From contig PWOI01000171.1 of assembly GCA_003557485.1 (NCBI GenBank), forward strand, positions 1-11,699: DNA of 11,699 nt. The letters run 5' to 3'. The position numbers and the translations under genes were made by a program. The stretch is from Elusimicrobiota bacterium. GTDB taxonomy: Bacteria; CG03; SLGR01; PWQF01. This document shows positions 1-11,699 of the stretch, in pieces. How positions within the stretch are numbered: position 1 is the stretch's first letter; every line of letters begins with the position of its first letter. The notes beneath the pieces were generated by a model. It did not search any database, was not told the DNA's origin, and saw only the letters and a list, made by a program, of their open reading frames with translations.

Positions 1-2988
1 AATGACACCGGAATTATTATAGGCCCCTACTCTGAAATAGTAGGTTGTATTCGGAACAAGATTAATTACATCCGTTGTTGTGGCCGTCAGGCCGGTATTA
101 AAATCGGCAAGAGTAGTTACAGCTTCTCCGAATGAAGCGTCGGTTGAGTATGAAAGACCATATATGGTCCCCTCGGGATTGTCTCCAGGATCCCAGATTA
201 AGGTTACAGAACTTATGTTTACCTCATCAAAACCCACGGATCCCGGTATATTGGCAAGGGTATATACCAGAGCCGGGTTTGAATTAGCCGCTCCTCCTGT
301 ATTGAAAACCTGGACATAGCGGTAATATGAAGTGTTCGGGCTCAATCCCGTCTCCTCCCATGACACGGTACCGGCGGCAAGGTCTCCGGAGGTACTTATC
401 CCGCCGGGAGTTGCGACCCTTACCCTGTACCCGTCTTCGCTGACAGAATTATCATCCCAGGTCCAGATTATGGAGTTTTCCGATAACGACTCACCGGAAA
501 AAGAAAGAGGCCATTGAGAGATAACGGGGGCAACAAGGTCATAGTCAATGTCGGTAAAATAATAGTTGTTAATGATATGATAAACACGGCCGGAACTTTT
601 ATCTGTATACATAATATGCGGATTCCCGTCAGGGTCTATTAATATTTTTGAAAAATGACCGACACTCCCGATACGCTGCGGCTCAATAATATCCCATTCC
701 TCATGAACGCCGTCCAACGGATAGTAGAGTGTAACAGCTAAATTGTCAGCCTCCTCAACTCTTGAAGATATATGAATATACCCGTCCCCATCCAGAACAA
801 TTGAAGGTTCGGCTACGTGACTTGTATACCCTGAGACTTCTACAATCCAATCCCCGGATTTGTTTGTAGCATACCCCTGGTCATAATTACCGTCTATATA
901 ATGGGTGAAGGCTATATGAGCACTGCCTTGACCGTCAACGGCAAGGGAAGTGTATTTTATAGGTACCTCTTCCTCGTAATAAACTTGAGTTTTTGTCCAG
1001 GAGCCGTCCTGGTTTTTTTGAGTATGCCAAAGCTGCGAATCGATCTCGTGTTCGTATGTATATGCTACCTGAGGCAACATATCCGGAGAAAGCTGGAGGC
1101 TTACCCAGCTTCCTGCCCTGTAACCGTCGGAATTCGAGTCAATTGTTTCATGGTTCCAGCTGCCGGGCGGGGTCCCGTAAGCATATCTAACCTGATAATC
1201 GTTACCTCCCTCGTGATATTGGTAGGCTATATGCACTACCCCAACTGGATCAATCTTAACCGAGCTGAAAAAGGCCTCCCCCGGCTTATCCACAAGCTGA
1301 TTGTTCCACCAGGAATCTCCGTCATAAAAGGAAAAAAACAGGTTCCCGTCTACCGTATTGTAGAAGGTTACAAAAGGATTCCTCTCATTATCCAGCGCAA
1401 TGCTCATCTGCTGGTGAACCGACCCGTCCCCGGCATTACCTATTATCACAGGGTCCGACCACTGGTTGGATTTATTAGAATAGTTCAGTGTGGAGTATAC
1501 AATATTATTGCCGGAAATGGCCGCGGCATGGATTACGCCTTTATTATCCATAACAAAATCCCCGTATCTGGTGCTTGTTTCTCCCGGGAAAACATCCCTT
1601 CTAAACCATATCTGGGCGCGGCCATTGGTCCGGTTGGATACCCCGGACCAGTTGCCTTCGGTATCATCCCTGGACCATATCCAGAAAAAATAATTCTTCC
1701 CGGGGTCAAGCCCACTTACTATATAGGTAACAGTTGTCCCGGGAGTAAGGCTGGAAGTTGAAATAGTTATCTGAGCGGCATCTTTTGAGGGGGATATGTT
1801 TCCATCCGTTGAATGCTGTATCTTAAACTCACCGGTAAGGTCTCCCCCGTAACCGTCTGCCGGGGAAGTCCAGTTAAGAAGAATTTCACCCTTGGTATTT
1901 CCGGCGGAAGCACTAAGGTTATTAATATCATCGGGGGGTAAAATCTGTTTTGCATAAACAATATCTCTTGAAGATGATCTAAAAACGATTCCGGGCAGAT
2001 GATAAGTAGGATCGTACCTCAAGTGATGGTGATACCTAGCAAAAATATTAGTTTCATAATCATATATTTTTGAAGCGTTCCACTCACTTCCATTATATTC
2101 GGCAAGCCATAATCCTGACCCTAAGGAATAAGATATTGCAGGGTTGTTATTATCAGGATTATAAGCCAGAGAACAGTAGTTCGCGACAGCTGCGGTTACT
2201 GCTGTTGATGTGGACCACTCTGTACCCGTCCACTTGGCATATTTAAGGTCATGTGGCCATTCATCTGATCTGTACGCTATGGCGGGATTACCGTCAGAAG
2301 GATCAAAAGCCACCGAAGCATAATTATGATTTTCATCGACATAGGTAGTGGTATAGTCACCGGAGTGTGAAAAAATTGAAAGTTCCAGCCCTCTTGCAGT
2401 TCCATGGGAAACCAAGCCATAGCTTCCGTCATAAAAACCCATAGAAAAGTTATTGTGATTCCAAACATCCAAAATGATATCGGACCAGCCGGAACCCGGC
2501 GTATATGTGGAAACATGAATCTCAATACTTGAGATGCTATAAGCAATTGCCGGAACATCAGAATCACTTATTGCCATAGCGCAAAGTTCATCAGTACCGG
2601 CAGTACCTACTGTTGAGGTTGACCATCCAACAGATTCCGTATAAGAGGCAAATATAACCTCATAAGTATCCGGTCTTACAAATGAAACATACGGTGCGGA
2701 GGAAACCGGGGCAAAATCAAGCCATACCTGGACATCATTTGTATTTGCAGACGGGAAAATTGTTTCCTCATCCCAGGAGTGCCCATCATATTTTGAATAT
2801 TTAAGATCCCCGCTCTCTTGGGCAAACCAAACTACGGCGGGAAGTCCATCGGATGGATCGTAGGCTAAACAGAAACCGTTTCCCGGTTCTGAACTGACTG
2901 TATCAATAATAAAAGTGGAAGCCCCTGCTACTGCGGGCAGCAGAAAAATTAAACTAAAAATCAGTAATAAGTAAAACTTCTTTTTTAT
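1..2988 (-). CDS. Secreted twin beta-propeller / fibronectin-III protein, partial (C-terminus off the window)
   Basis: One frame stays open for 996 codons from 2988 to base 1 with no stop. Residues 1-22 form a textbook Sec signal (KKK, then a run of Leu/Ile/Phe, then PAVAGA). Residues about 25-348 hold roughly seven blade-like units, the clearest with the pattern 'DPSDGxPAIAY...LKYAKW.G.EW'. Residues about 350-455 are a fibronectin-III domain. Residues about 458-815 hold seven further blades, each opening with 'hxhDxxGxxHIAY' (VMDNKGVIHAA, VKIDPVGVVHIAY, LIDPDGNPHIMY and others). Two more fibronectin-III domains follow at about 818-905 and 915-996. This architecture fits an exported surface or extracellular protein; substrate and activity are unknown, and I see no sialidase Asp-box series to support an enzymatic call. 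The start is odd: an in-frame TAG (2989-2991) directly precedes ATA (2986-2988), and the first in-frame ATG is more than 130 codons later, past the signal peptide. A missing C-terminal sorting domain may lie beyond base 1. Confidence 0.85.
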   Translation of the reverse strand, partial: MKKKFYLLLIFSLIFLLPAVAGASTFIIDTVSSEPGNGFCLAYDPSDGLPAVVWFAQESGDLKYSKYDGHSWDEETIFPSANTNDVQVWLDFAPVSSAPYVSFVRPDTYEVIFASYTESVGWSTSTVGTAGTDELCAMAISDSDVPAIAYSISSIEIHVSTYTPGSGWSDIILDVWNHNNFSMGFYDGSYGLVSHGTARGLELSIFSHSGDYTTTYVDENHNYASVAFDPSDGNPAIAYRSDEWPHDLKYAKWTGTEWSTSTAVTAAVANYCSLAYNPDNNNPAISYSLGSGLWLAEYNGSEWNASKIYDYETNIFARYHHHLRYDPTYHLPGIVFRSSSRDIVYAKQILPPDDINNLSASAGNTKGEILLNWTSPADGYGGDLTGEFKIQHSTDGNISPSKDAAQITISTSSLTPGTTVTYIVSGLDPGKNYFFWIWSRDDTEGNWSGVSNRTNGRAQIWFRRDVFPGETSTRYGDFVMDNKGVIHAAAISGNNIVYSTLNYSNKSNQWSDPVIIGNAGDGSVHQQMSIALDNERNPFVTFYNTVDGNLFFSFYDGDSWWNNQLVDKPGEAFFSSVKIDPVGVVHIAYQYHEGGNDYQVRYAYGTPPGSWNHETIDSNSDGYRAGSWVSLQLSPDMLPQVAYTYEHEIDSQLWHTQKNQDGSWTKTQVYYEEEVPIKYTSLAVDGQGSAHIAFTHYIDGNYDQGYATNKSGDWIVEVSGYTSHVAEPSIVLDGDGYIHISSRVEEADNLAVTLYYPLDGVHEEWDIIEPQRIGSVGHFSKILIDPDGNPHIMYTDKSSGRVYHIINNYYFTDIDYDLVAPVISQWPLSFSGESLSENSIIWTWDDNSVSEDGYRVRVATPGGISTSGDLAAGTVSWEETGLSPNTSYYRYVQVFNTGGAANSNPALVYTLANIPGSVGFDEVNISSVTLIWDPGDNPEGTIYGLSYSTDASFGEAVTTLADFNTGLTATTTDVINLVPNTTYYFRVGAYNNSGVI

Positions 2989-2996
2989 CTACTTTT

Positions 2997-3040
2997 CAAT
3001 TTCGCTTTCCCCCAGAAACTTTTTCAGTTAATCGAAATTG
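2997..3040 (-). promoter_or_regulatory. Leader hairpin next to the ATA start of the propeller gene
   Basis: The mRNA contains a perfect 8-bp inverted repeat, CAATTTCG (3040-3033) and CGAAATTG (3004-2997), with a 28-nt loop that itself can form a small AACT/AGTT hairpin. AGGAGA, the best Shine-Dalgarno-like sequence, sits immediately 5' of the stem (3046-3041), and 8 nt separate the stem from ATA. Folding the stem would bring AGGAG to a normal distance from the start. The pairing is seen; the function is inferred. Confidence 0.4.
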
Positions 3041-3076
3041 TCTCCTCATTTAAATAAAACGGCATCGGCTTTCTTC

Positions 3077-3082
3077 ATTATA
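3077..3082 (-). promoter_or_regulatory. Perfect -10 box (TATAAT) without a recognisable -35
   Basis: TATAAT on the minus strand, about 90 bp before the ATA start of the propeller gene. The position 16-18 bp upstream is a T-run with no TTGACA resemblance and there is no TGn extension. If used, it would be expected to need an activator. A start near 3070 would give a leader of about 80 nt containing the AGGAGA and the hairpin. Confidence 0.35.
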
Positions 3083-3116
3083 CGTAACAATAGTAACCAA
3101 AAAAAATAACTTTGTC

Positions 3117-3132
3117 TGTAACCTGGGTCACA
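3117..3132 (-). promoter_or_regulatory. CRP/FNR-family-like operator upstream of the propeller gene
   Basis: The minus strand reads TGTGACCCAGGTTACA, which is TGTGA-N6-TTACA and matches nine of ten core bases of the known cAMP-CRP site TGTGA-N6-TCACA. Its centre (3124.5) is about 54 bp upstream of the start predicted from the TATAAT at 3077-3082, and about 18 bp downstream of the start predicted from the TTGACA promoter at 3150-3177. Neither is the classic -41.5 or -61.5 position, so activation or repression cannot be told. A class III cyclase gene lies 2.5 kb upstream on the same strand. Confidence 0.45.
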
Positions 3133-3149
3133 TAAAAAATAATTTTAAC

Positions 3150-3177
3150 CATATAAAAAAAACCATACTATTGTCAA
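3150..3177 (-). promoter_or_regulatory. Sigma-70-like promoter for the propeller gene
   Basis: A perfect -35 TTGACA (3177-3172), a 16-bp spacer rich in T, and TATATG (3155-3150; four of six matches to TATAAT). It points toward the propeller gene from a gap after the preceding operon. The predicted start is near 3143, giving a leader of about 155 nt. The perfect -35 is the main support; the -10 is mediocre. Confidence 0.45.
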
Positions 3178-3178
3178 C

Positions 3179-3241
3179 TTTTTTGCGTTTCAAAAAGAAT
3201 TTTATTCTCTTTTTACTTCAATAAGGTTTAAACGCAAAAAA
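3179..3241. repeat. 12-bp perfect inverted repeat with 39-bp spacer
   Basis: Left arm TTTTTTGCGTTT (3179-3190) and right arm AAACGCAAAAAA (3230-3241) are exact reverse complements. The spacer contains a second hairpin (AGAAT-TTT-ATTCT, extendable by A/T pairs past one bulged C). The left arm ends 1 bp before the -35 box at 3177. It could be a paired operator or part of a weak bidirectional terminator; the arms are A/T-dominated with a single GCG core. Confidence 0.45.
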
Positions 3242-3260
3242 TTTTTAAAGAGTTTAAATT
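3236..3260 (-). terminator. Possible weak terminator after the response regulator gene
   Basis: The minus-strand transcript would form TTTAAA-CTC-TTTAAA followed by AA and six T residues, starting 17 nt past the stop codon of the response regulator gene. The stem is entirely A/T, so it would be a poor intrinsic terminator; it shares its T-run with the inverted repeat at 3179-3241. Confidence 0.2.
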
Positions 3261-3276
3261 ACCACTTCCTTAAGAA

Positions 3277-4071
3277 CTAAGCTATATCGGAGGCCTTATC
3301 CTCCTTAAGTTTGCGGATATGATTTTCAAGTTCTCTGGATTCTATTGGTTTTATTATAAAATATCTTTTGTTGCTTTTTTTAAGGGTATCACTCAACTCG
3401 CCTGCTTCTACATCTGCAACATCTATTACTATGGGGATATCCTTTAATAAAGAATTATGCAGTAGCTTTACCCCCATATAACCGCTCCATCCTGCATTTG
3501 ATGCACCGGTTAATATAACATCAGGTCTATTCTTTGTAGCCTTTTCCAGAAGCTCGGCGCTGTTATTTGCCTGGTCTATATTGTAATTCTGCTTACTTTG
3601 AATTTTACTGTAGGCAAAATCACTATTCTCTTTATTTTCAAAGCAGGAGAGAATTTTTATCTTTTCAGAAGTTACAGCTTCAACCTGTGCTGTATGGGTA
3701 ACCGGACCGGTTATTTTTTCTATCTTTTCAATAAAATCCTTCACATCAAAAGGTTTTTTAATAAAATCGTGGACATCCAGTTTGATATATTCAACCATAC
3801 TGTCGGTAAAATCCATAGCTGTAGCCATTATTATTGGAATACTCTTTGTCAGGGATGTGCTGCGCAACACCTTTACAGCCTCAAGCCCTGTCATATTGGG
3901 CATCTTGTTGTCAAGTATTATTATATCCGGCTGTATCTCCTTAGCCTTACCGATCCCCGACTGTCCGTCAAAGGCTTCAAATATTTCAAAGTTGTAATCC
4001 TTCAGAAAAGACCTGAACAAATTTCTCCAGTGTTTCTCATCATCAACTACAAGAATTTTTTTCTTATCCAT
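3277..4071 (-). CDS. Response regulator: receiver domain plus degenerate second receiver
   Basis: This 264-residue cytoplasmic protein has no DNA-binding or enzymatic domain. The N-terminal receiver (residues 4-121) keeps every phosphorylation residue: D10 and D11, phospho-acceptor D54 in IIILDNKMP, T84, and K106 before P107. The second domain (about 137-256) follows the same fold pattern (RPDVILTG, then DIPIVIDV, then FIIKPIE), but the acceptor position is G189, the acidic pair is replaced by S142/C143, and only K241-P242 survives. It therefore looks like a receiver followed by a pseudo-receiver. The start is well placed, with AAAAGGAG about 11 nt upstream. It lies 18 nt after the kinase gene, so it is probably a phosphorylation target of that kinase. 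It may act by protein contact or as a phosphate sink; the output is unknown. Confidence 0.88.
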   Translation of the reverse strand: MDKKKILVVDDEKHWRNLFRSFLKDYNFEIFEAFDGQSGIGKAKEIQPDIIILDNKMPNMTGLEAVKVLRSTSLTKSIPIIMATAMDFTDSMVEYIKLDVHDFIKKPFDVKDFIEKIEKITGPVTHTAQVEAVTSEKIKILSCFENKENSDFAYSKIQSKQNYNIDQANNSAELLEKATKNRPDVILTGASNAGWSGYMGVKLLHNSLLKDIPIVIDVADVEAGELSDTLKKSNKRYFIIKPIESRELENHIRKLKEDKASDIA

Positions 4072-4089
4072 TGTTAAAATATCTCCTTT

Positions 4090-5562
4090 TTACAGATACT
4101 CCTCTTCTCTTCCCGTATCATTAGCCTTTTCTTTTTTAACAGGGTCCGGATTTTTAAGCGGTATTGTGTAATAAAAAACAGTACCCTCGTTCTCTTTACT
4201 CTCAACCCATATTTTACCCCCGTGGGCTTCAACTATAGCCTTTGCGATTGAAAGACCGATTCCAGTACCCTTTATCCGAGAGTGTTTCTGGTGCTCCTTG
4301 AGCTGGGAGAACTTTCCGAATATTGTTTCTATCTGGTCAGGAGGTATACCTATCCCGGTATCGGCAACTGCCACGGTAAAATCTTTTTCTGATTTTTCCA
4401 GAGAAACCTTAACTCTCCCGTTTTCAGGAGTGAACTTAAGGGCGTTTGAGATAAGGTTTACGGTCAACCGCTCAACTTTATCTGCATCTATAACCGCCTC
4501 AACGGAATCTTCGGGCAGATCGCAGGAAAGTTCCACGTTCTTTTCCGACCCCAGCGGCTTAAGGGTCTGAATAATCTTTTCAACCAGTTGCCGCATATCC
4601 GCGGGAGCGGGGTCTATCTCCATTTTACCCGACTTAATTTTAGCATAATCCAGTATATCGTTTATAAGTGAGAGCAGTCTATCGCATATTGATTTAACAT
4701 CCGTGAGGGTTTCAAACTGTTTTGAAGAAAGAGGATCAAATGCTCCGCTTAAAAGAAGCGATATATAACCCATTGCCGCACTCAGGGGAGACCTTAAATC
4801 GTGAGTGAGGCTGTAAACAAAGTTCTCCTTCATTTCATCCAGTTCTTTAAGACGAAGGGCCATTGTATTAAACTCTTTTGCCAGATCTCCCAGCTCATCC
4901 CGCGTTTTTACGTCAATAGTGTACCCCAGCTCCCCGTTTCCTATCTTCCGGGCTCCCCCGGCAAGCTGGTCTATCGGTTTTATCATAGTGTAAGCCATTA
5001 TAAAAGAGCCTATGATCCCGGCAAAAAGTATAATCGCGGTAACAATAACTATACGCCGGGTAGTGGCAGCCATACTTTCCCTTATGGAATCCCGCAGTAT
5101 CCCTTCGGAAAACCCTACAAGAGCCGTACCCAGCCGGGTATCACCAACCATAACGGGCGTTGAGGCAACCGAAACAATCTCCCCGGCCTCGTTTTCATAT
5201 GACTGGAGTATGGCATCACCGGACTGCATTGCCTCAACATAATACTCCTTATCCTTTACGGTTTCTATAAAAGATGAGTCCGAATGCATCTGCACGGTCC
5301 CGGTATTATCAATAAAACTTAGATATAGGACTCCCGTAGCCTGAACTGCCGAGTTAAAATAATTAAGAGCAAAAAGTTCATCATCCATTATGATGGATTC
5401 CCGGCAAATCTCGGCCGAATCCCTGGCCAGCGAAATCTGGCCTTCCCGGCCCCGTCGGGCCAGGTGCCTTGCCTCAAATATTAAAAACAGGATACTAAGT
5501 CCCACTGCAACCGCTACGACAAAGAAAGCGGCAAACAGGCTGAACTTGGCTTTAAGTCTCAA
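4090..5562 (-). CDS. Membrane sensor histidine kinase (HAMP-HisKA-HATPase)
   Basis: The protein passes the membrane twice and autophosphorylates in the cytoplasm. Numbering from the upstream in-frame ATG at 5598 (502 aa): TM1 about 18-41; an extracytoplasmic sensor about 42-182, perhaps Cache-like; TM2 about 183-205; HAMP about 206-258; HisKA with H266 in SLTHDLRSPLSA; N-box with N385 in NLISNALKFTP; G1 DTGIGIP (413-419); F-box FGKFSQ; G2 GTGIGLS (444-450). All catalytic boxes are intact. I prefer TTG at 5562, giving MRLKAKFSLFAAFF and 490 residues, because GAGGTG lies 4 nt upstream. From the ATG, the extra 12 residues only re-read the conserved end of the cyclase gene in another frame and have no good Shine-Dalgarno. 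It overlaps the receiver-cyclase gene and precedes the second regulator gene, so both receivers are likely partners. Confidence 0.92.
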   Translation of the reverse strand: MRLKAKFSLFAAFFVVAVAVGLSILFLIFEARHLARRGREGQISLARDSAEICRESIIMDDELFALNYFNSAVQATGVLYLSFIDNTGTVQMHSDSSFIETVKDKEYYVEAMQSGDAILQSYENEAGEIVSVASTPVMVGDTRLGTALVGFSEGILRDSIRESMAATTRRIVIVTAIILFAGIIGSFIMAYTMIKPIDQLAGGARKIGNGELGYTIDVKTRDELGDLAKEFNTMALRLKELDEMKENFVYSLTHDLRSPLSAAMGYISLLLSGAFDPLSSKQFETLTDVKSICDRLLSLINDILDYAKIKSGKMEIDPAPADMRQLVEKIIQTLKPLGSEKNVELSCDLPEDSVEAVIDADKVERLTVNLISNALKFTPENGRVKVSLEKSEKDFTVAVADTGIGIPPDQIETIFGKFSQLKEHQKHSRIKGTGIGLSIAKAIVEAHGGKIWVESKENEGTVFYYTIPLKNPDPVKKEKANDTGREEEYL

Positions 5563-6574
5563 ACTGCACCTCGTAAGGAACCAGGCCGTATTTCTCATTA
5601 AGATCCCGGCAATCTATTTTTTTAAAATTATAAACTCCCTTGAGCGCTTCCGCGGCCTCTCTGCTAACGAGAATCTGACCGGGCAAGGCGGTCTGCTGAA
5701 GTTTTGCGGCAAAATTAACAGCGCTTCCTATAACCGTAAAATCGGAGCGCTTCTCCGTACCCACAGAACCTATTATGACTTGACCGGTATGAATACCGGT
5801 TCTCACCTTTAAAGGAATACCGCCGGGCCCTTTAAGCCGGCTGATGCTGCGGTGTATCTCAATTGCGGATTCCACTGCCTTCTCTTCTGTTAACCCCTCA
5901 TTCTCCCGCCGGGAACGAAAGAGAGCCATCACGGCATCTCCTATAAACTTATCTATTACCCCCTCCTTTTTCTGTATGGATTCAGATATAAGAGAAAAAT
6001 ATTTATTTAATATAACTTTTATCTTTTCCGGCTCCAGTTTCCTTGTCAAGACCGTAAACCCGCAAAGATCACAGAAAAGTATGGATACAGTCTCTTCATA
6101 TTGACCTTCTCCGGGGGTTCCCCGGAGCTTTCCGGAGAGTTCTTTAGATATATATTTCTCTATACTTTTTATATTCTCTTCTATCTCCTCTTTTCCGCTC
6201 TTAAAACGTCTGAAGGCGGCATTTATCCTGGCTGCCAGTTCCTTTTCGTCAAAAGGTTTTGTTATGTAATCATCAGCACCGGCATCCAGTCCGGTAACCT
6301 TGCTTTTGGTTGCAGTCATAGAGGTAAGCATTAAAACGGGTATATTTTTTGTCTCTTTTGTTTCTTTAAGTATCCGGCAAGCTTCAACCCCATCCATATC
6401 GGGGAGGTTCCAGTCAAGAAGGATTATATCCGGAGACTTTTCCCTGGCTGACTTAATTCCGCTTCCGGCATCAAAATTTTTTAATACCTGGTACTTACTT
6501 GAATTTAGGGTTTTTTTAATAATATCGGCATATACAGGCTCATCATCCACAACCAGTACTTTTATTTTATCCAT
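5552..6574 (-). CDS. Response regulator with class III adenylate cyclase output (REC-CHD)
   Basis: It is predicted to make cAMP from ATP under control of phosphorylation. The receiver domain (residues 4-121) has D10/D11, acceptor D54 in IILLDWNLP, T84 and K106. A helical linker (about 122-158) leads to the class III cyclase homology domain (about 160-335). Metal-binding aspartates are D169 in FCDLCGFT and D213 in IGDAVMA. The ATP-selecting pair appears to be K209 (DKFIGD) and D278 (SDFTVIG), which argues against a guanylate cyclase. The transition-state motif N-x3-R reads N287-F-A-A-K291, so arginine is replaced by lysine; this could lower activity. The protein is 340 residues, normal for REC-cyclase fusions, and cytoplasmic. 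GGAAGAT lies upstream of the ATG. The following gene is a histidine kinase that overlaps it, the likely phosphate donor. A CRP-like site lies further down the locus. Confidence 0.92.
   Translation of the reverse strand: MDKIKVLVVDDEPVYADIIKKTLNSSKYQVLKNFDAGSGIKSAREKSPDIILLDWNLPDMDGVEACRILKETKETKNIPVLMLTSMTATKSKVTGLDAGADDYITKPFDEKELAARINAAFRRFKSGKEEIEENIKSIEKYISKELSGKLRGTPGEGQYEETVSILFCDLCGFTVLTRKLEPEKIKVILNKYFSLISESIQKKEGVIDKFIGDAVMALFRSRRENEGLTEEKAVESAIEIHRSISRLKGPGGIPLKVRTGIHTGQVIIGSVGTEKRSDFTVIGSAVNFAAKLQQTALPGQILVSREAAEALKGVYNFKKIDCRDLNEKYGLVPYEVQFET
5567..5572 (-). promoter_or_regulatory. Ribosome binding site deciding the kinase start (TTG 5562)
   Basis: GAGGTG is a six-base match to the Shine-Dalgarno complement and sits 4 nt before TTG at 5562-5560, inside the last codons of the cyclase gene (stop 5554-5552). 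This favours a coupled TTG start over the ATG at 5598. Confidence 0.5.
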
Positions 6575-6610
6575 TTATCTTATCTTCCGACAGCAGACTG
6601 AGTACAAAAA

Positions 6611-7858
6611 TTACCTGGCAGTCAGCTGCCTCACCCTTTCAAGCCGGTCAAGCAGCCTGTAGGCATTTTCGTTTCCGGGATCAATCTCAAGTATATTATT
6701 TACAATATCCTCGCATTCCTTATACTGCCCGTTCATATAAAGAGCAGCCGCATCAAAGTACATTCTACGGGCCTTCACTCTTCTTTCCTTAAGTTCTTCT
6801 TCCGAAGCTGCTTTTCTTGCCCTGGAAATGTAATCCCCGGCCTTTTTGTTTTTTGGATCCAATTGAAGCGCTCTATTGAACTCCGATTCCGCTTGCCTGT
6901 AGTTTTCCCTTTCAAACATAGCAATGCCCTTTTCCAGGATTTCAGAAACTTTTTTATTTCTGGTATTCAGTGCTGATGATTTAAGAGCCCGGGCCTGACT
7001 GTGTCCCGAATCCTTTTCCAGCACCTTACTAAAAAGTGATATCGCCTCATTGTAACGTTTTTCTTCAAGGGAAACAGAAGCTTTTTCCATAAGCTCTTTT
7101 ATTTCCTCTCTCCTTTTTTCCTCCAAGCGAGCCTGGTATATCCGCTGCTCCCTGCGGGAAAGCCTATCCTGTATTTCTTTAATATATTCGGCGGCGCTCC
7201 TGTTTCCGGGATCAAGTTCGATAACCCTTCTCCAGGCTTCAAGCGCTTCTACAAGGTTCCCGCCCTGATAATACATATAACCCTCCCCTATGCGGTTTTC
7301 AAGAAGCGCGGCTCTGGCTATCATTTCTAATTCCTCTTGAGTAGATTTCACTCGTTTTTCAAGCTCCCTGTTGTCAGGCTGCCATATTAGCGACATTTCC
7401 CATTCTCTCAGTGCCATCGCCGGGTTATTCTGGGACAGATATTCCAATCCCCTTATGTAATATTCCCGGGCGCGCAAACGGGCCCGAGCTTCAGGAGTAT
7501 CTTCTTCTGTAAGCTTACTCAGTCTTTCCTTTTCCTTTTCTCGCTCAACCTCAATCTGACGAAGGGCTTCCTGCTCTTCCCTTTCCAGGCGTTCCCGGTC
7601 TTTACGCTCTTCTTCTATTTTCTTGCGCGATTTAAGGATGAATGCCTTGGCCCCCTTGTGTTCCGGGTCACTTTTGAGGGATTCCACAAACCTTAATATT
7701 GCGGAAGAATAGTTCCCTTCCAGGTATTTTCCCAGCCCCTCACGAAAAATAATATTGGCATCTCCGGCAGAATCAGCAGATATATATATGCTGGGGGATA
7801 ATATTAGCAGGGCGGCCGATATAGTCACCCTTATGCGCTTTAGAGTATTCAAACTCAT
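6611..7858 (-). CDS. Secreted TPR / coiled-coil protein
   Basis: This 415-residue protein starts with a Sec-type signal (LKRIRVTISAALLILSPS, cleavage probably near residue 28; no lipobox cysteine), so it should be periplasmic. TPR units are visible at about 34-67, 132-165, 189-222, 255-288, 306-339 and 364-397, several ending in the usual 'LDPGN' or 'LDPKN'. They are separated by highly charged Glu/Arg/Lys helices (about 74-118, 225-255, 342-362) likely to form coiled coils. It begins 2 nt after the PorV-like gene stop and ends 36 nt before the receiver-cyclase gene, so translation is probably coupled to the barrel gene. TPR proteins commonly scaffold envelope complexes; a role supporting the PorV-like barrel is inferred from position only. 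I cannot assign it to a named T9SS component. Confidence 0.82.
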   Translation of the reverse strand: MSLNTLKRIRVTISAALLILSPSIYISADSAGDANIIFREGLGKYLEGNYSSAILRFVESLKSDPEHKGAKAFILKSRKKIEEERKDRERLEREEQEALRQIEVEREKEKERLSKLTEEDTPEARARLRAREYYIRGLEYLSQNNPAMALREWEMSLIWQPDNRELEKRVKSTQEELEMIARAALLENRIGEGYMYYQGGNLVEALEAWRRVIELDPGNRSAAEYIKEIQDRLSRREQRIYQARLEEKRREEIKELMEKASVSLEEKRYNEAISLFSKVLEKDSGHSQARALKSSALNTRNKKVSEILEKGIAMFERENYRQAESEFNRALQLDPKNKKAGDYISRARKAASEEELKERRVKARRMYFDAAALYMNGQYKECEDIVNNILEIDPGNENAYRLLDRLERVRQLTAR

Positions 7859-7860
7859 CT

Positions 7861-8982
7861 TTATTCTAGTTTTCCGCTTGCTTTATCAAGTGACTTAAGG
7901 GCGCCTTCATGGTAGGGATCCATTATGAGGACCCGGGTAAATATATCAATTGCCTCCAGGTAATTGCCGGTTTCAAGCTCCCTTAACCCGGACCGGTAAA
8001 GCCGTTCAGATCTGCTGAGTCGCGGAGCAACTTCGGAATCAAGGGTTCCGAATTTATACCCTAAGGATATCCTGTGGGTACTTCCAAGGTCTCCGTATGG
8101 CACCCATGCGTAATCAACACAAAGGTCCCTGTAGCCAAAGCCTACACCTGCGGAAAGCCCGGACAGCATATCAAGATCGCTTATAGTTGTTGTTTTGAAT
8201 CCGGCCCGCGGCATTATCTGTACAGGGCCTATGCTGTTACTGTACTCGGCACCGGTATGAAAACTTATGCGGTTATCAGCAGGCAGGTTGATATCTGCCG
8301 CCAAAAGCAGTTGTTCTGATAATAGCCTGTAATAGGAACCAATCTTTACGTTAATCGGCAATGGATCCCTATCATCAACAAACTTCAGTCCCATTCCCAG
8401 ATTCTGGACAACAAGCCCTACCTTTATCTCCCGTGATTTTGATACCGTCTTTAATGTCCCTATATCTGCCGCTATCCCAAAAGCGGATTCTTCCTCCAGT
8501 TTGGAACTGATTACCTTCAGGTTCATTCCCAGCGGCCAGCCTTTTATTTTCCTGGCATAAGAAGCGGTAAACATCATATCCCGGGCAGTGTAAGTATCAT
8601 CCAGTCCCAAACCGGTATTGTCATAATAGTCCATATCGCCCGCACTCAGGTATTTTACCGATGCCCCCATTGTACCGCCCAAAGTTTTCTGTGAATAGGC
8701 AAGCCAGCTAAAGGAAATGTCCTGGAACCATATGGCATGCATGGCTCCGGCCTCTCTACCCTGTATCTGCCCCAGCCCTGCCGGGTTCCAGTATACTGCG
8801 TTTACGTCATCTGATACTGCTGTAAAAGCTTCTCCCATTGCAAGCGGCCTGGCTCCTATTCCCAGCTTAAGAAACTGCGCCGAAGTGGTTCCGACTTTAT
8901 CGGAGCTTAGCACAGCCAAAACGCTTCCGCCTGAAGTAAATGCCAGGATAACCGCTAATACGAATATTCTGTTCAATTTCAT
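7861..8982 (-). CDS. PorV/PorQ-family outer-membrane beta-barrel with C-terminal TPR
   Basis: After a signal peptide (residues 1-23, ending VLA) the protein carries the family's defining N-terminal block at about 34-70: AQFLKLGIGARPLAMGEAFT, then AVSDDVNAVYWNPAGL. The body consists of alternating hydrophobic strands typical of a FadL-like barrel (for example ISFSWLAYSQ, AGVGFGYRDLCVDYAWVPYG, HRISLGYKFG). In T9SS organisms PorV shuttles sorting-domain cargo at the outer membrane; PorQ is its relative. Here the barrel ends near residue 313 and is followed by a single TPR hairpin at about 327-360 (LYRSGLRELETGNYLEAIDI), an addition not needed by the family. AGGGGG lies just before the ATG. It is 10 nt after the sorting-domain gene and 2 nt before the TPR gene. 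Whether it is a true PorV cannot be settled without finding the rest of a T9SS. Confidence 0.88.
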   Translation of the reverse strand: MKLNRIFVLAVILAFTSGGSVLAVLSSDKVGTTSAQFLKLGIGARPLAMGEAFTAVSDDVNAVYWNPAGLGQIQGREAGAMHAIWFQDISFSWLAYSQKTLGGTMGASVKYLSAGDMDYYDNTGLGLDDTYTARDMMFTASYARKIKGWPLGMNLKVISSKLEEESAFGIAADIGTLKTVSKSREIKVGLVVQNLGMGLKFVDDRDPLPINVKIGSYYRLLSEQLLLAADINLPADNRISFHTGAEYSNSIGPVQIMPRAGFKTTTISDLDMLSGLSAGVGFGYRDLCVDYAWVPYGDLGSTHRISLGYKFGTLDSEVAPRLSRSERLYRSGLRELETGNYLEAIDIFTRVLIMDPYHEGALKSLDKASGKLE

Positions 8983-8992
8983 TGCAGGCCCC

Positions 8993-9553
8993 CTATTTAA
9001 TTATAGCGAAACTGCCGGTTGCCGTTTCGCCTTCCGAATTGCTTATGTAAAATATGTAAACCCCGCTTGCAAGTTTCCTGCCGGCGTTGTTGACCGCCTC
9101 CCACTCGTAATAGTTTACAGAAGTATCTCTCTTTTCGGCATCATACACAAGCTCTCCGGCTATGTTAAACACCCTTATATATGCATTATCGGTCAGGTTT
9201 TTGAAAGTGATTTTCTCTGCCTGGAACTTTCCCGGGGAGTGCGGCTTGAACGGGCTGGGATAGATATAAGCGTCTTTAAGCGTTGCTGCCGGCAAAATCC
9301 GGCTGGAGTAGGAAAACATTCCCATTGACCCCGCGCTTGTCCTGTAGGAGGAGCTCTCCCCCGTACCAGTTATGCCGTCGGAAACAGCCGCCGCTGTTTC
9401 ATAACCTGATGAGGCCCCCTTTCCCCCGCCGCCGGTAAAGAGGCCGAAAAGCAGACTGTAGCCGGAACTTGACATTAAAACGGCAAAGGCAGTGGATGAA
9501 GCCATAAGAAGAAGCAGCAGGGGTACCTGCTTTTTAATTTTTATATTTATCAT
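8993..9553 (-). CDS. Small secreted protein with T9SS-type / FlgD-like C-terminal sorting domain
   Basis: The 186-residue product has a signal peptide (1-24, KKQVPLLLLLMASSTAFA). Residues 27-80 are three loose repeats of about 19-20 residues, each with Ser-Ser-x-Tyr or Ser-Gly-Tyr followed by glycine-rich sequence. Residues 93-186 match the pattern of T9SS type A or FlgD-Ig-like C-terminal domains: AYIYPSPFKP, then RVFNIAGELV, then W151 in YYEWEAVNNAGRKLASGVYIF, ending GSFAIIK. Such domains direct cargo across the outer membrane and are usually attached to much larger proteins; here the domain is half of the protein. GGAG lies 7 nt before the ATG. The next gene, 10 nt away, is a PorV-like barrel, the known partner type for such domains. 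Export by that barrel is inferred. Confidence 0.82.
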   Translation of the reverse strand: MINIKIKKQVPLLLLLMASSTAFAVLMSSSGYSLLFGLFTGGGGKGASSGYETAAAVSDGITGTGESSSYRTSAGSMGMFSYSSRILPAATLKDAYIYPSPFKPHSPGKFQAEKITFKNLTDNAYIRVFNIAGELVYDAEKRDTSVNYYEWEAVNNAGRKLASGVYIFYISNSEGETATGSFAIIK

Positions 9554-9581
9554 TTTATTTCTCCAGCACTCTCACGCACCC

Positions 9582-11699
9582 TTACTCTATTTTCAGGAAA
9601 ACATTGCCGTCCGCCAGCAGGTAACCTATCCTCTTTCCGTCAGTTGTCTCCACACTCCGGCCGGTTATACTAACCTGCCCGGCCTTATAGGGAACCTGCC
9701 CGACAAGAGCAACCAGGGCGTAGTCAGACTTAAGCTCATCAGAGATATTATTCCCCACAAAACCGGGGTTAGTTGAATATACCCAACAAGGACATCCCCC
9801 TCCTGATATCTTCTGACCATTCCGGTATCAAGGTTAAGCCCTATCACATCCCCGGCTTCCAGATCTTCACCTATATCCTTTTTGAACCACTCGGCAAAAT
9901 CTCCTCCGGGTGACTCCCAAGAACCGGCAGCAGATGCTACACCGTCGCCCCTGAAATCAAACATAGTTGTTACTCCAACAGAATTGCCTGTAGATATCCT
10001 GACGAGGGAACCGTCTTCACCCGGCCCGCCGCCGATGAGATCAAAGCCTCCGTGAAAACGGGCACGAAAGCTGTTTGCAAGTGTATTTTCATTTGCATCA
10101 TTCAACGAATCGCTTACCGCCCAGGATCCTAAAGCAGTAGCGCTTGATCTCATACCTGCGGCAAATGAGTAATCCCCTGAGGCAACATTTTTCTCTCCTC
10201 CGGGCACCATTGAGTTATTTCCTGAAGCAACATTTTCTTTACCTCCGCCTACCACTGAAGCATTACCGGAAGCAATATTTTCATAACCGCCTCCAACTGT
10301 AGCACTTATGTTAGAAGCCTCGTTGTCCCAGCCACCTGCCACAGCGGTATACATCTGGGAAGCAACATTTCCTCTACCGCCTCCAACTGTAGCATACTCT
10401 CTGCTGGCCTCGTTACTCCCACCTCCACCGATTGTTGCGGAATCAGCACTGGCCTCATTACTATACCCGCCGCTTACTATGGAATGGTCACCGGCGGCAG
10501 TATTCTGATCTCCCCACACAAATGCATAATTGCCGCTAACTGATATATTTGAAAGGTTCCCTCCGGCAAATTTATTTTCCGTTATATGTACCCCGCTGCC
10601 AAACTCATCAAGCAGGTATAACCCGGCAGCATCACTTGCTGTTACGGTACTTACTGTTATAGGAGCAGCAGCAGTAAAAGCAGCAGTAACAGTAAGAGTC
10701 TCAATAAGACCGTTATCCGCATTGATATTTGTAGCATCAACAGTCATCGCATCAAGATCATTGGCTCCTATTTCATTGATCCAAGCAGATTCAGTAACAG
10801 TCACCGTGGCAAAAGTAACTTCCGAAGCGGTTGTTACGGGCTGGTCCATTTCAAAGAGCTGACCAGCTCCCTGACCGGTGTCTATTGCTGAGGCAGCAAT
10901 CGCTCCCGTAACATCAAGGTCTCCGCCAACCGAAAGATCACCTCCGACTGTCGTATCGCTTGATACCGTTACGGGCTTTGTAAAAGTATTCTGCCCGGTA
11001 AAAGTCTGCGTGGAGTGAAGAACGGCCGCATTGCCGCCGCCTGTTTCACTTGCCAGGCGGGTGTCCACGTAATTCTTTGTGGCCGCATCCTGGGCGGCCT
11101 CAGGATCAGCCATACTGCTGATTCGCTGCCCGCTCATAACCAGACCATCTGTTACGGTTACTGTTGAACCGGTAACCGTATTTACTTCCAGCGCTCCAGC
11201 TATCACTGTGTCACTTGATATAGTTACCATATTAAGGAAGTTATTTTGGCCGGTAAAGGTTTGCGTTGCATAGAGAACAGCCGCATTACCGCCCCCGGTC
11301 TGGTTGTCCACATAATTTTTTGTGGCCGCGTCCTGATCGTCATCCGGTTCACCCAGACCTGATATTTTATAACCGCCCATCGCAATATCAGCCCCGGCAC
11401 TAAATTCATCAAGGGTAACCTGGGTTAAATCTATCTCTGTTAAGCCTATGGCTTCCGGAATAACCGATTCGGCAAGTAGTGCATAGGGAGCCGTAGTTAT
11501 TGATATGTTTGCCACCTGTGCGGGAGATTCGGCCGCCGCAAAATTTGAATCACTGAAAACAACTCTGGAAGTTGGACTTGAAATTTCTACGGCTCCCAGG
11601 TAAATCTGAAAGTCCGCCTGAGCCGCGGGCGGAGTGTTTATTAAATTAGTGTAATCAAGATAATATGAAGACGTATTCCCGGCAAGCCTTTCAGTATAT
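9582..11699 (-). CDS. Mosaic adhesin: tail-fibre repeats, YadA-head repeats, Peptidase_G2-like C-terminus; 5' partial and frameshifted
   Basis: The frame is open from the right edge (first full codon at 11698) through 9776; an internal GTG at 11515 is not the likely start. In order it shows: two 81-residue units with AATKNYVD and TQTFTGQN motifs, as in phage tail fibres (11374-10904); a Val/Thr-rich stretch; eight 15-residue YadA/Hep_Hag-like repeats (10504-10145); then GDFAEWFKKDIGEDLEAGD, resembling the IMC autoprocessing domain found after such repeats (Peptidase_G2 type). At GYI (9784-9776) the frame breaks. The original frame runs 37 more codons of unrelated sequence to a stop at 9665. 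The -1 frame continues the domain perfectly with STNPGFVGNNISDELKSDYA, then ALVALVGQVPYKAG, and ends at TAA 9584-9582 with 28 nt and a GGAG before the next gene. I therefore take 9582 as the true end. It probably acts at the cell surface; phage origin of the modules is possible. One missing T would explain the break. Confidence 0.82.
9773..9784 (-). other. Frameshift site in the adhesin gene
   Basis: The mRNA reads GGG TAT ATT CAA in the upstream frame. Restoring one T (GGG TAT ATT TCA) joins it to the frame coding STNPGF and reaches a stop next to the following gene. There is no X-XXY-YYZ slippery heptamer here, so a deletion or base-calling error is likelier than programmed slippage. Confidence 0.75.
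10145..10504 (-). repeat. Eight tandem 45-bp (15-aa) YadA/Hep_Hag-like repeats
   Basis: Units follow N-x-A-S-x-x-x-S-x-V-x-G-G-x-x: NTAAGDHSIVSGGYS, NEASADSATIGGGGS, NEASREYATVGGGRG, NVASQMYTAVAGGWD, NEASNISATVGGGYE, NIASGNASVVGGGKE, NVASGNNSMVPGGEK and NVASGDYSFAAGMRS. There is no spacing drift. In known trimeric adhesins this pattern builds a left-handed beta-roll head. Confidence 0.88.
10904..11374 (-). repeat. Two tail-fibre-like repeats with a 243-bp period
   Basis: Unit 1 begins GYKISGLGEP at 11374 and unit 2 GQRISSMADP at 11131, exactly 81 codons apart. Both contain QDAATKNYVD, then GGGNAAVL, then TQTFTGQN; unit 2 carries a short insertion (RLASE) after KNYVD. Such AATKNYVD repeats are common in phage tail fibres and in surface proteins of candidate phyla. 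Confidence 0.75.

Follow-up and report, generated by a model that had tools for sequence, protein, structure and literature searches.

Organization of the display and signaling genes

We analyzed an 11,699-nucleotide stretch of DNA (referred to here as the window) from an Elusimicrobiota bacterium, which makes up a whole contig (PWOI01000171.1; G000:C37) of a metagenome-assembled genome (MAG; GCA_003557485.1) of 2.07 Mb that is 86.6% complete. The bacterium presumably comes from a soda lake, and its phylum is poorly known. The set studied comprises seven genes of the window, all on the - strand, encoding, in this order, a surface adhesin, a small secreted protein with a C-terminal sorting domain (CTD), an outer-membrane barrel of the PorV/PorQ family known from the type IX secretion system (T9SS), a secreted tetratricopeptide repeat (TPR) protein, a receiver (REC) domain joined to an adenylyl cyclase, a membrane histidine kinase, and a response regulator with one REC domain and one degenerate receiver (REC/pseudo-REC). 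A first-pass annotation of the sequence had named the same seven genes in this order, and analysis of the open reading frames (ORFs) and domains agrees with it. It had also described the genes as separated by short gaps or an overlap; the spacing is indeed close (28, 10, 2, 36, -11, and 18 nt), but the adhesin frame proved to be shifted, and the start of the kinase had to be moved.

The phylum is small; about 15 relatives were compared, and phylum-wide counts cover 16 genomes. Two relatives are referred to repeatedly, namely G001 (PWMP01000214.1), which belongs to the same genus, and G003 (SLGR01000049.1), which belongs to another family of the same order. GenBank labels them Elusimicrobia and Sumerlaeota, which is perhaps unreliable in so thinly sampled a phylum. 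Both come from the CSSed sediment MAG series, which derives from soda-lake sediment.

The adhesin gene (9582-11,699) is open at the contig end and encodes head-type repeats (SNEAS..ATVGGG) followed by a C-terminal domain in common with G003:C211. It is 50% identical to L069:1-2034. Its reading frame shifts near 9,780 (9770-9790), beside a short G run, so that the first frame stops at 9665 and the second ends at 9582; the G003 homologue is intact across this point and continues through ...GVYSTKPGFVGNN.... The shift may be a sequencing error just as well as a real mutation, and decay or phase variation is also possible. The next gene (8993-9553) encodes what the first-pass annotation had described as a near-bare sorting-domain protein, and the protein does consist mostly of a T9SS/FlgD-type CTD, scoring 32.6 bits with CHU_C (cut-off 27) and 19.2 with TIGR04183 (under the cut-off of 23). 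By its CHU_C match it qualifies as CTD-bearing T9SS cargo, and it has orthologues at L069:2063-2632 (53% identity) and L072:6645-7202 (48%).

The barrel protein (7861-8982), annotated from the start as PorV-like, belongs to the PorV/PorQ family, with 182.3 bits for NF033709 against a cut-off of 90, but not to the PorV equivalog (NF033710, 68.4 bits against a cut-off of 250), and it also falls below the PorQ equivalog cut-off. Its AlphaFold2 model is a 14-strand barrel followed by C-terminal helices that form a TPR-like hairpin, and the closest PDB structures are T9SS PorV chains (8gl6_F and 6h3i_F). Because even-stranded barrels of the PorV type have both termini in the periplasm, these helices and the TPR protein should be periplasmic. 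The TPR protein (6611-7858) begins with a stretch that resembles a signal peptide, and its best non-orthologous match in the set examined is the TPR half of a PorV-TPR fusion in genome G008 (30% identity over 273-292 aa, E about 1e-38). Thus, barrel and TPR, which are two genes in the window, are one gene in G008. TPR similarity alone would be weak evidence for such a correspondence, although it is consistent with the gene order. An identification of the TPR gene as T9SS PorW/SprE was ruled out since NCBIfam gave no such match. As a side observation, PorV-like proteins of ~650 aa that also have FlgD-like and OmpA domains occur elsewhere (L161:5107-7047 and L198:6105-8060) and possibly represent a peptidoglycan-binding version of the barrel.

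The signaling trio starts with the REC-cyclase gene (5552-6574). The class IIIb cyclase domain aligns best, among solved structures, with Arthrospira CyaC (1wc0) and retains the metal ligands Asp-169 and Asp-213, the ATP-type adenine pair Lys-209/Thr-280, and the transition-state residue Asn-287. However, Lys-291 replaces the usual transition-state arginine in all three orthologues, whereas the sensor-fused cyclases described below retain the arginine. Because the metal-binding aspartates, the Lys-Thr pair, and the asparagine are kept but the arginine is a lysine, synthesis of cAMP by the REC-cyclase is likely rather than proven. The kinase gene (4090-5562) most likely starts at TTG 5562 and not at ATG 5598, which gives an 11-nt overlap with the cyclase gene; we prefer this start because the resulting N terminus, MRLK(A/T)KFS, is conserved in G001 (from TTG) and G003 (from ATG), and a Shine-Dalgarno-like GAGGTG lies upstream of it. 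The kinase has the order TM-Cache-TM-HAMP-HisKA-HATPase, with two transmembrane (TM) helices flanking a Cache domain whose fold is closest to those of WalK and CitA, and its H-box, N, G1, and G2 motifs are all conserved. With this HisKA/HATPase kinase and the intact first receivers of both receiver proteins, the trio has the parts of a two-component system. The last regulator (3277-4071) is 70% and 63% identical to its orthologues in G001 and G003. The first-pass annotation had called it a REC/pseudo-REC protein, and its second receiver indeed has neither the acidic pair nor a phospho-acceptor aspartate in three of three orthologues. No output domain was found in this regulator, and the domain scan of the whole trio revealed no DNA-binding output domain. 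The genome does contain two candidate Crp-type genes.

Recurrence of the barrel-TPR and sensor pairing

In the congener (G001:C44), the genes for the CTD protein, PorV, TPR protein, REC-cyclase, kinase, and REC/pseudo-REC regulator are retained and are followed by unrelated TetR/TolC/RND genes. The identities to the window are 37% for PorV, 51% for the TPR protein, and 70-86% for the three regulators.

Regulator genes were sought next to each of 83 PorV ORFs from the order, and a search with a profile of the Cache-HAMP sensor alone followed. Only a handful of the 83 ORFs had an adjacent same-strand regulator, and a general two-component enrichment around any PorV was therefore set aside as weak. 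The PorV-regulator signal is specific to one sensor type. A gene for a PorV-TPR fusion lies directly 5' of a gene for a kinase that shares this N-terminal sensor in G002:C34, where four receivers follow, and in G003:C220, where a REC-GAF-kinase follows; in G014:C29, two CTD proteins, a PorV-TPR protein, and two small ORFs precede a sensor kinase and a REC protein. In both G008:C77 and G012:C4, the order is PorV-TPR, a 1.6-kaa fn3/CTD protein, and a Cache-HAMP sensor fused to an adenylyl cyclase, with 4-nt overlaps. Sensor and cyclase, two proteins in the window that are presumably linked by phosphotransfer, are thus a single protein at the G008 locus. In six Tad-like loci, a Cache-HAMP protein (PAS-bearing in both that were scanned) adjoins a PorV-TPR fusion, which in most of them it immediately precedes. 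Further, several of the PorV paralogues examined adjoin a CTD protein.

The pairing is also seen outside the phylum. In G044:C13, from another phylum, the genes encode a CTD protein, a PorV-TPR protein, and a HAMP-SpoIIE protein, and in G060:C99, from yet another, a sensor-HAMP-cyclase is followed by a PorV-like-TPR protein. Relatives of the G060-type sensor-HAMP-cyclase were found at E <= 1e-60 in 62 of the 82 genomes of that phylum, and the sensor itself resembles that of the window weakly (1e-9 in G060). At all 30 of the 30 G060-type loci examined, the next same-strand gene encodes a barrel protein, nearly always with TPRs, and mostly overlaps the sensor-cyclase gene or lies within about 20 nt of it, whereas the genes on the other side vary. 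This adjacency is the strongest single fact in the analysis, and it is independent of the PorV-based choice of seeds.

The 30 loci also bear on an explanation without contact between the gene products, in which a small extracellular ligand is detected by the Cache kinase, which then, by way of REC-cyclase/cAMP and the second regulator, does no more than set the expression of the neighboring display genes, PorV and TPR being targets of the regulon. The resemblance of the Cache domain to the ligand-binding domains of WalK and CitA and the Crp-family genes in the genome speak for such a regulon, and operons that join a kinase with its targets are common. However, the trio has no DNA-binding output domain, and at every one of these loci the sensor-cyclase has kept the barrel-TPR gene as its neighbor despite changing genes on the other flank, as would be expected of a dedicated pair more than of a shared promoter. 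We consider the regulon explanation possible but doubtful.

Several other loci are recorded here as observations in their own right. The Tad-pilus-like loci (L243:184-9592 and L246-L249) contain a Cache-HAMP-PAS protein, a PorV-TPR fusion, and a second TPR protein and then a prepilin-peptidase-like gene, and a PorV-family barrel thus appears to have been incorporated into a pilus locus. A third kind of output is seen at L252:2582-7919, from another phylum, where the gene after that of a PorV-TPR protein of 1,247 aa encodes a HAMP-SpoIIE phosphatase. At L185:6425-9690, a CTD-like protein, a PorV, and a PorV-TPR protein are followed, 25 nt downstream, by an HTH_17-REC regulator, i.e. a DNA-binding output in the same position. 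Finally, L241:3710-7129, L236, and L237 share a conserved same-type sensor kinase and three receivers, with no PorV nearby in the available sequence.

Enrichment of PorV genes near the sensor

The 16 genomes of the phylum contain 135 PorV-family genes, about one per 195 kb, so about 3% of sensor genes would be expected to have a same-strand PorV gene within 5.5 kb. The observed count was 14 of 24 sensor genes in the phylum, or 10 of 19 after removal of the five seeds. When counted as arrangement groups, with the seeds left out and by our own grouping, 4 of 11 lie near a PorV gene (p about 3e-4). Among histidine kinases alone, 5 of 14 kinases of the sensor type are near PorV compared with 3 of 126 other kinases.

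Observations that weigh against the linkage

A number of findings weigh against a linked display and sensing system. The enrichment is partly circular because two seed loci were found through their adjacency to PorV, and for histidine kinases alone, with the window genus counted once and the two PorV-chosen loci dropped, the p value is 0.05. No PorV lies near the other same-type sensor kinases in G002:C54, G002:C28, G003:C101, and G000:C114. The G060-type barrels resemble PorV only distantly, scoring 27.8 and 43 bits where the family cut-off is 90, and TPRs are promiscuous in sequence searches. In G003 the set is split, the adhesin, CTD protein, PorV, and TPR genes being on a different contig from the trio, which lies behind a transglutaminase-like gene and is convergent with a different PorV and a CTD-bearing fn3 protein. 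Sensor-linked PorVs do not cluster on the PorV tree, along which the label changes at least 8 times, and the PorV-sensor pairing is therefore not one inherited unit.

Two simple scenarios were discarded on these grounds: a seven-gene operon conserved across the order, which the split in G003 rules out, and a single origin of the sensor-linked PorVs, which the tree rules out. In the same tree, the window PorV is sister to the PorV of the G003 display set, and the G001 PorV, which lies beside the trio, falls in a different clade. This indicates that the display cassette is exchangeable and the trio stable. Both the split in G003 and the exchange of PorV between the two congeners could be read as coincidence, i.e. 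that the genus descends from an ancestor in which an often-exchanged display cassette had by chance come to lie 5' of a two-component/cyclase operon unrelated to it. However, gene sets made up of the same kinds of parts, again with short gaps or overlaps, occur in further genera and phyla, and we judge coincidence very improbable.

The first-pass annotation had proposed a single integrated system. What stands of this is a linked set within the genus and a core link, the adjacency of PorV-TPR and Cache-HAMP genes, often together with a cyclase, that is found again elsewhere in the phylum and in two further phyla; what does not stand is a fixed order, which fails in G003 and is not conserved outside the genus, an outcome that the annotation itself had named as refuting. 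Overall, we conclude that the display genes and the Cache-HAMP sensor/cAMP genes are very probably linked in function.

Borders of the gene set in the window

The set probably ends at 3277 because the last gene is followed by a spacer of about 280 AT-rich bases (3000-3276, - strand), which has a promoter-like site (TTGACA-18-TATGGT at 3177-3148) and an inverted repeat and separates the REC/pseudo-REC gene from an fn3 surface gene. The inverted repeat (TTTTTTGCGTTT...AAACGCAAAAA at 3170-3240) is a possible terminator. Across the window, promoter-like sites (26 compared with 20.2 +/- 5.5 in shuffles) and terminator-like sites (15 compared with 11.7 +/- 3.4) are at chance level and thus uninformative on whether the set forms one transcript, and the TPR/cyclase junction has only a weak hairpin. 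The fn3 surface protein (window 1-3000, - strand) probably starts near 2,998 with a signal-peptide-like stretch, and its frame appears to be broken there by an A-run, so that the mechanical ORF begins only at 2577.

T9SS components in the genome

In the T9SS, PorV is the carrier of CTD proteins that leave the SprA pore. The genome of the window has a SprA-like protein of 1,728 aa (G000:C42) at the very edge of the TIGR04189 cut-off (199.6 bits against 200, E 5e-59), on which SprA_N scores 23.7-27.2 bits (cut-off 27). We note that its gene (L128:2992-8915) is followed by a comF-like gene and not by T9SS genes. In this 86.6% complete MAG, no GldM_1st match above the cut-off was found; GldM-like hits of 12.9-15.3 bits were taken as chance, being below the cut-off and similar to weak hits in control genomes. 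GldL also gave no match, in a search that had no responding positive control and in an incomplete MAG, so that its absence is unproven. A PorU-type sortase (peptidase C25) was found nowhere in the order of the window by a search that did find PorU in five genomes of family f5. Thus, of the T9SS parts sought, a borderline SprA-like protein was recovered and GldL, GldM, and PorU were not, and we do not class the system as a canonical T9SS. The annotation had seen no resemblance to the T9SS regulators PorX and PorY, and this was upheld: membership in PorXY is ruled out by the lack of a PglZ domain and by a PorX model score of 68.7 bits against a cut-off of 300, with only the REC part matching.

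A possible trans-envelope sensing unit

In our preferred reading, which we rate at about even odds, the window set represents one form of a modular trans-envelope sensing unit by which the state of the surface would be signaled inward. The surface-to-cytoplasm mechanism would run as follows. A CTD-bearing surface protein, for which the sorting-domain protein is the candidate, would be exported, probably via the SprA-like pore of the genome, and a PorV-family barrel of its own would carry or retain it. The periplasmic TPR repeats, which relatives encode in one gene with the barrel and the window partly in a separate one, would reach toward the Cache domain of the sensor, where we infer a contact between PorV-TPR and sensor. 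The inner-membrane sensor would then report export or the state of the surface inward, and the kinase would phosphorylate both receiver proteins, the REC-cyclase as well as the REC/pseudo-REC regulator. Sensors of this kind in relatives directly carry a cyclase, a phosphatase, or another module. The cAMP produced would act through the Crp-type proteins of the genome.

The signal could also run in the reverse direction, such that the kinase/cAMP output gates the loading or turnover of the PorV-TPR carrier. A precedent has been proposed for PorX, a receiver protein with phosphodiesterase activity for which an interaction of the CheY-like domain with GldL has been reported (PMC10951265), and the lack of a DNA-binding output in the trio would suit such a direct action. 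However, the regulators are all cytoplasmic, PorV and TPR lie beyond the inner membrane, and a GldL-like motor protein was not found, which makes this direction unlikely in our view.

More tentatively, and with less confidence than in the inward-sensing unit itself, PorV-type barrel-TPR proteins might be the outer-membrane halves of widespread two-membrane receptors, with a Cache/HAMP partner and interchangeable outputs (adenylyl cyclase, kinase with REC-cyclase, PP2C-type phosphatase, or PAS), and display or export might be read as cAMP in several phyla. This and other uncultured phyla have many PorV-family barrels, and in the order of the window they occur without a complete set of T9SS parts. 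If inward sensing is correct, a conserved partnership with a cAMP-making sensor would give these barrels a testable function and provide a new example of information crossing two membranes from the cell surface.

Comparison with known systems

The FecA-FecR-FecI system transfers a signal from the cell surface across two membranes. The window set resembles it in having an outer-membrane barrel and a periplasmic domain that would report to an inner-membrane regulator, but it has no TonB-dependent receptor and no sigma/anti-sigma pair, its output being a kinase and cAMP. Arthrospira CyaC, one of the class III cyclases with a receiver or sensor, is the closest solved structure to the cyclase domain and is likewise REC-linked; unlike CyaC, the window cyclase has one REC domain, a separate overlapping kinase gene, a lysine in place of the arginine, and PorV/TPR neighbors. 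The barrel shares family membership and a PorV-like fold with the T9SS PorV/PorQ (UPF0164) barrels, and it differs from them in scoring under the equivalog cut-offs, in its C-terminal TPR, and in having many paralogues per genome. The first-pass annotation had not recognized the combination as described, and in the literature searched, which was mostly without subscription papers and preprints, we found no description of a PorV-family barrel paired with a cyclase or sensor.

A close parallel is the PorA/PorV-PorXY-SigP pathway of Porphyromonas gingivalis, which also joins a small CTD protein, PorV, and a histidine kinase pathway; there, PorA is the CTD protein that binds to PorV, and a role in passing a surface signal on to PorXY has been proposed for it (PMC7712824). 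Further, PorX is, like the REC-cyclase, a REC protein carrying a nucleotide-acting enzyme domain (PMC10951265). The window set differs in that it has no PglZ domain or SigP partner and instead has a class III cyclase and a REC/pseudo-REC output, and in that it includes a periplasmic TPR protein and comes from a genome in which GldL, GldM, and PorU were not found. If the proposed sensing holds, the PorA/PorV-to-PorXY signal of Porphyromonas would become comparable with a simpler gene pair, that of a barrel-TPR protein and a sensor-cyclase.

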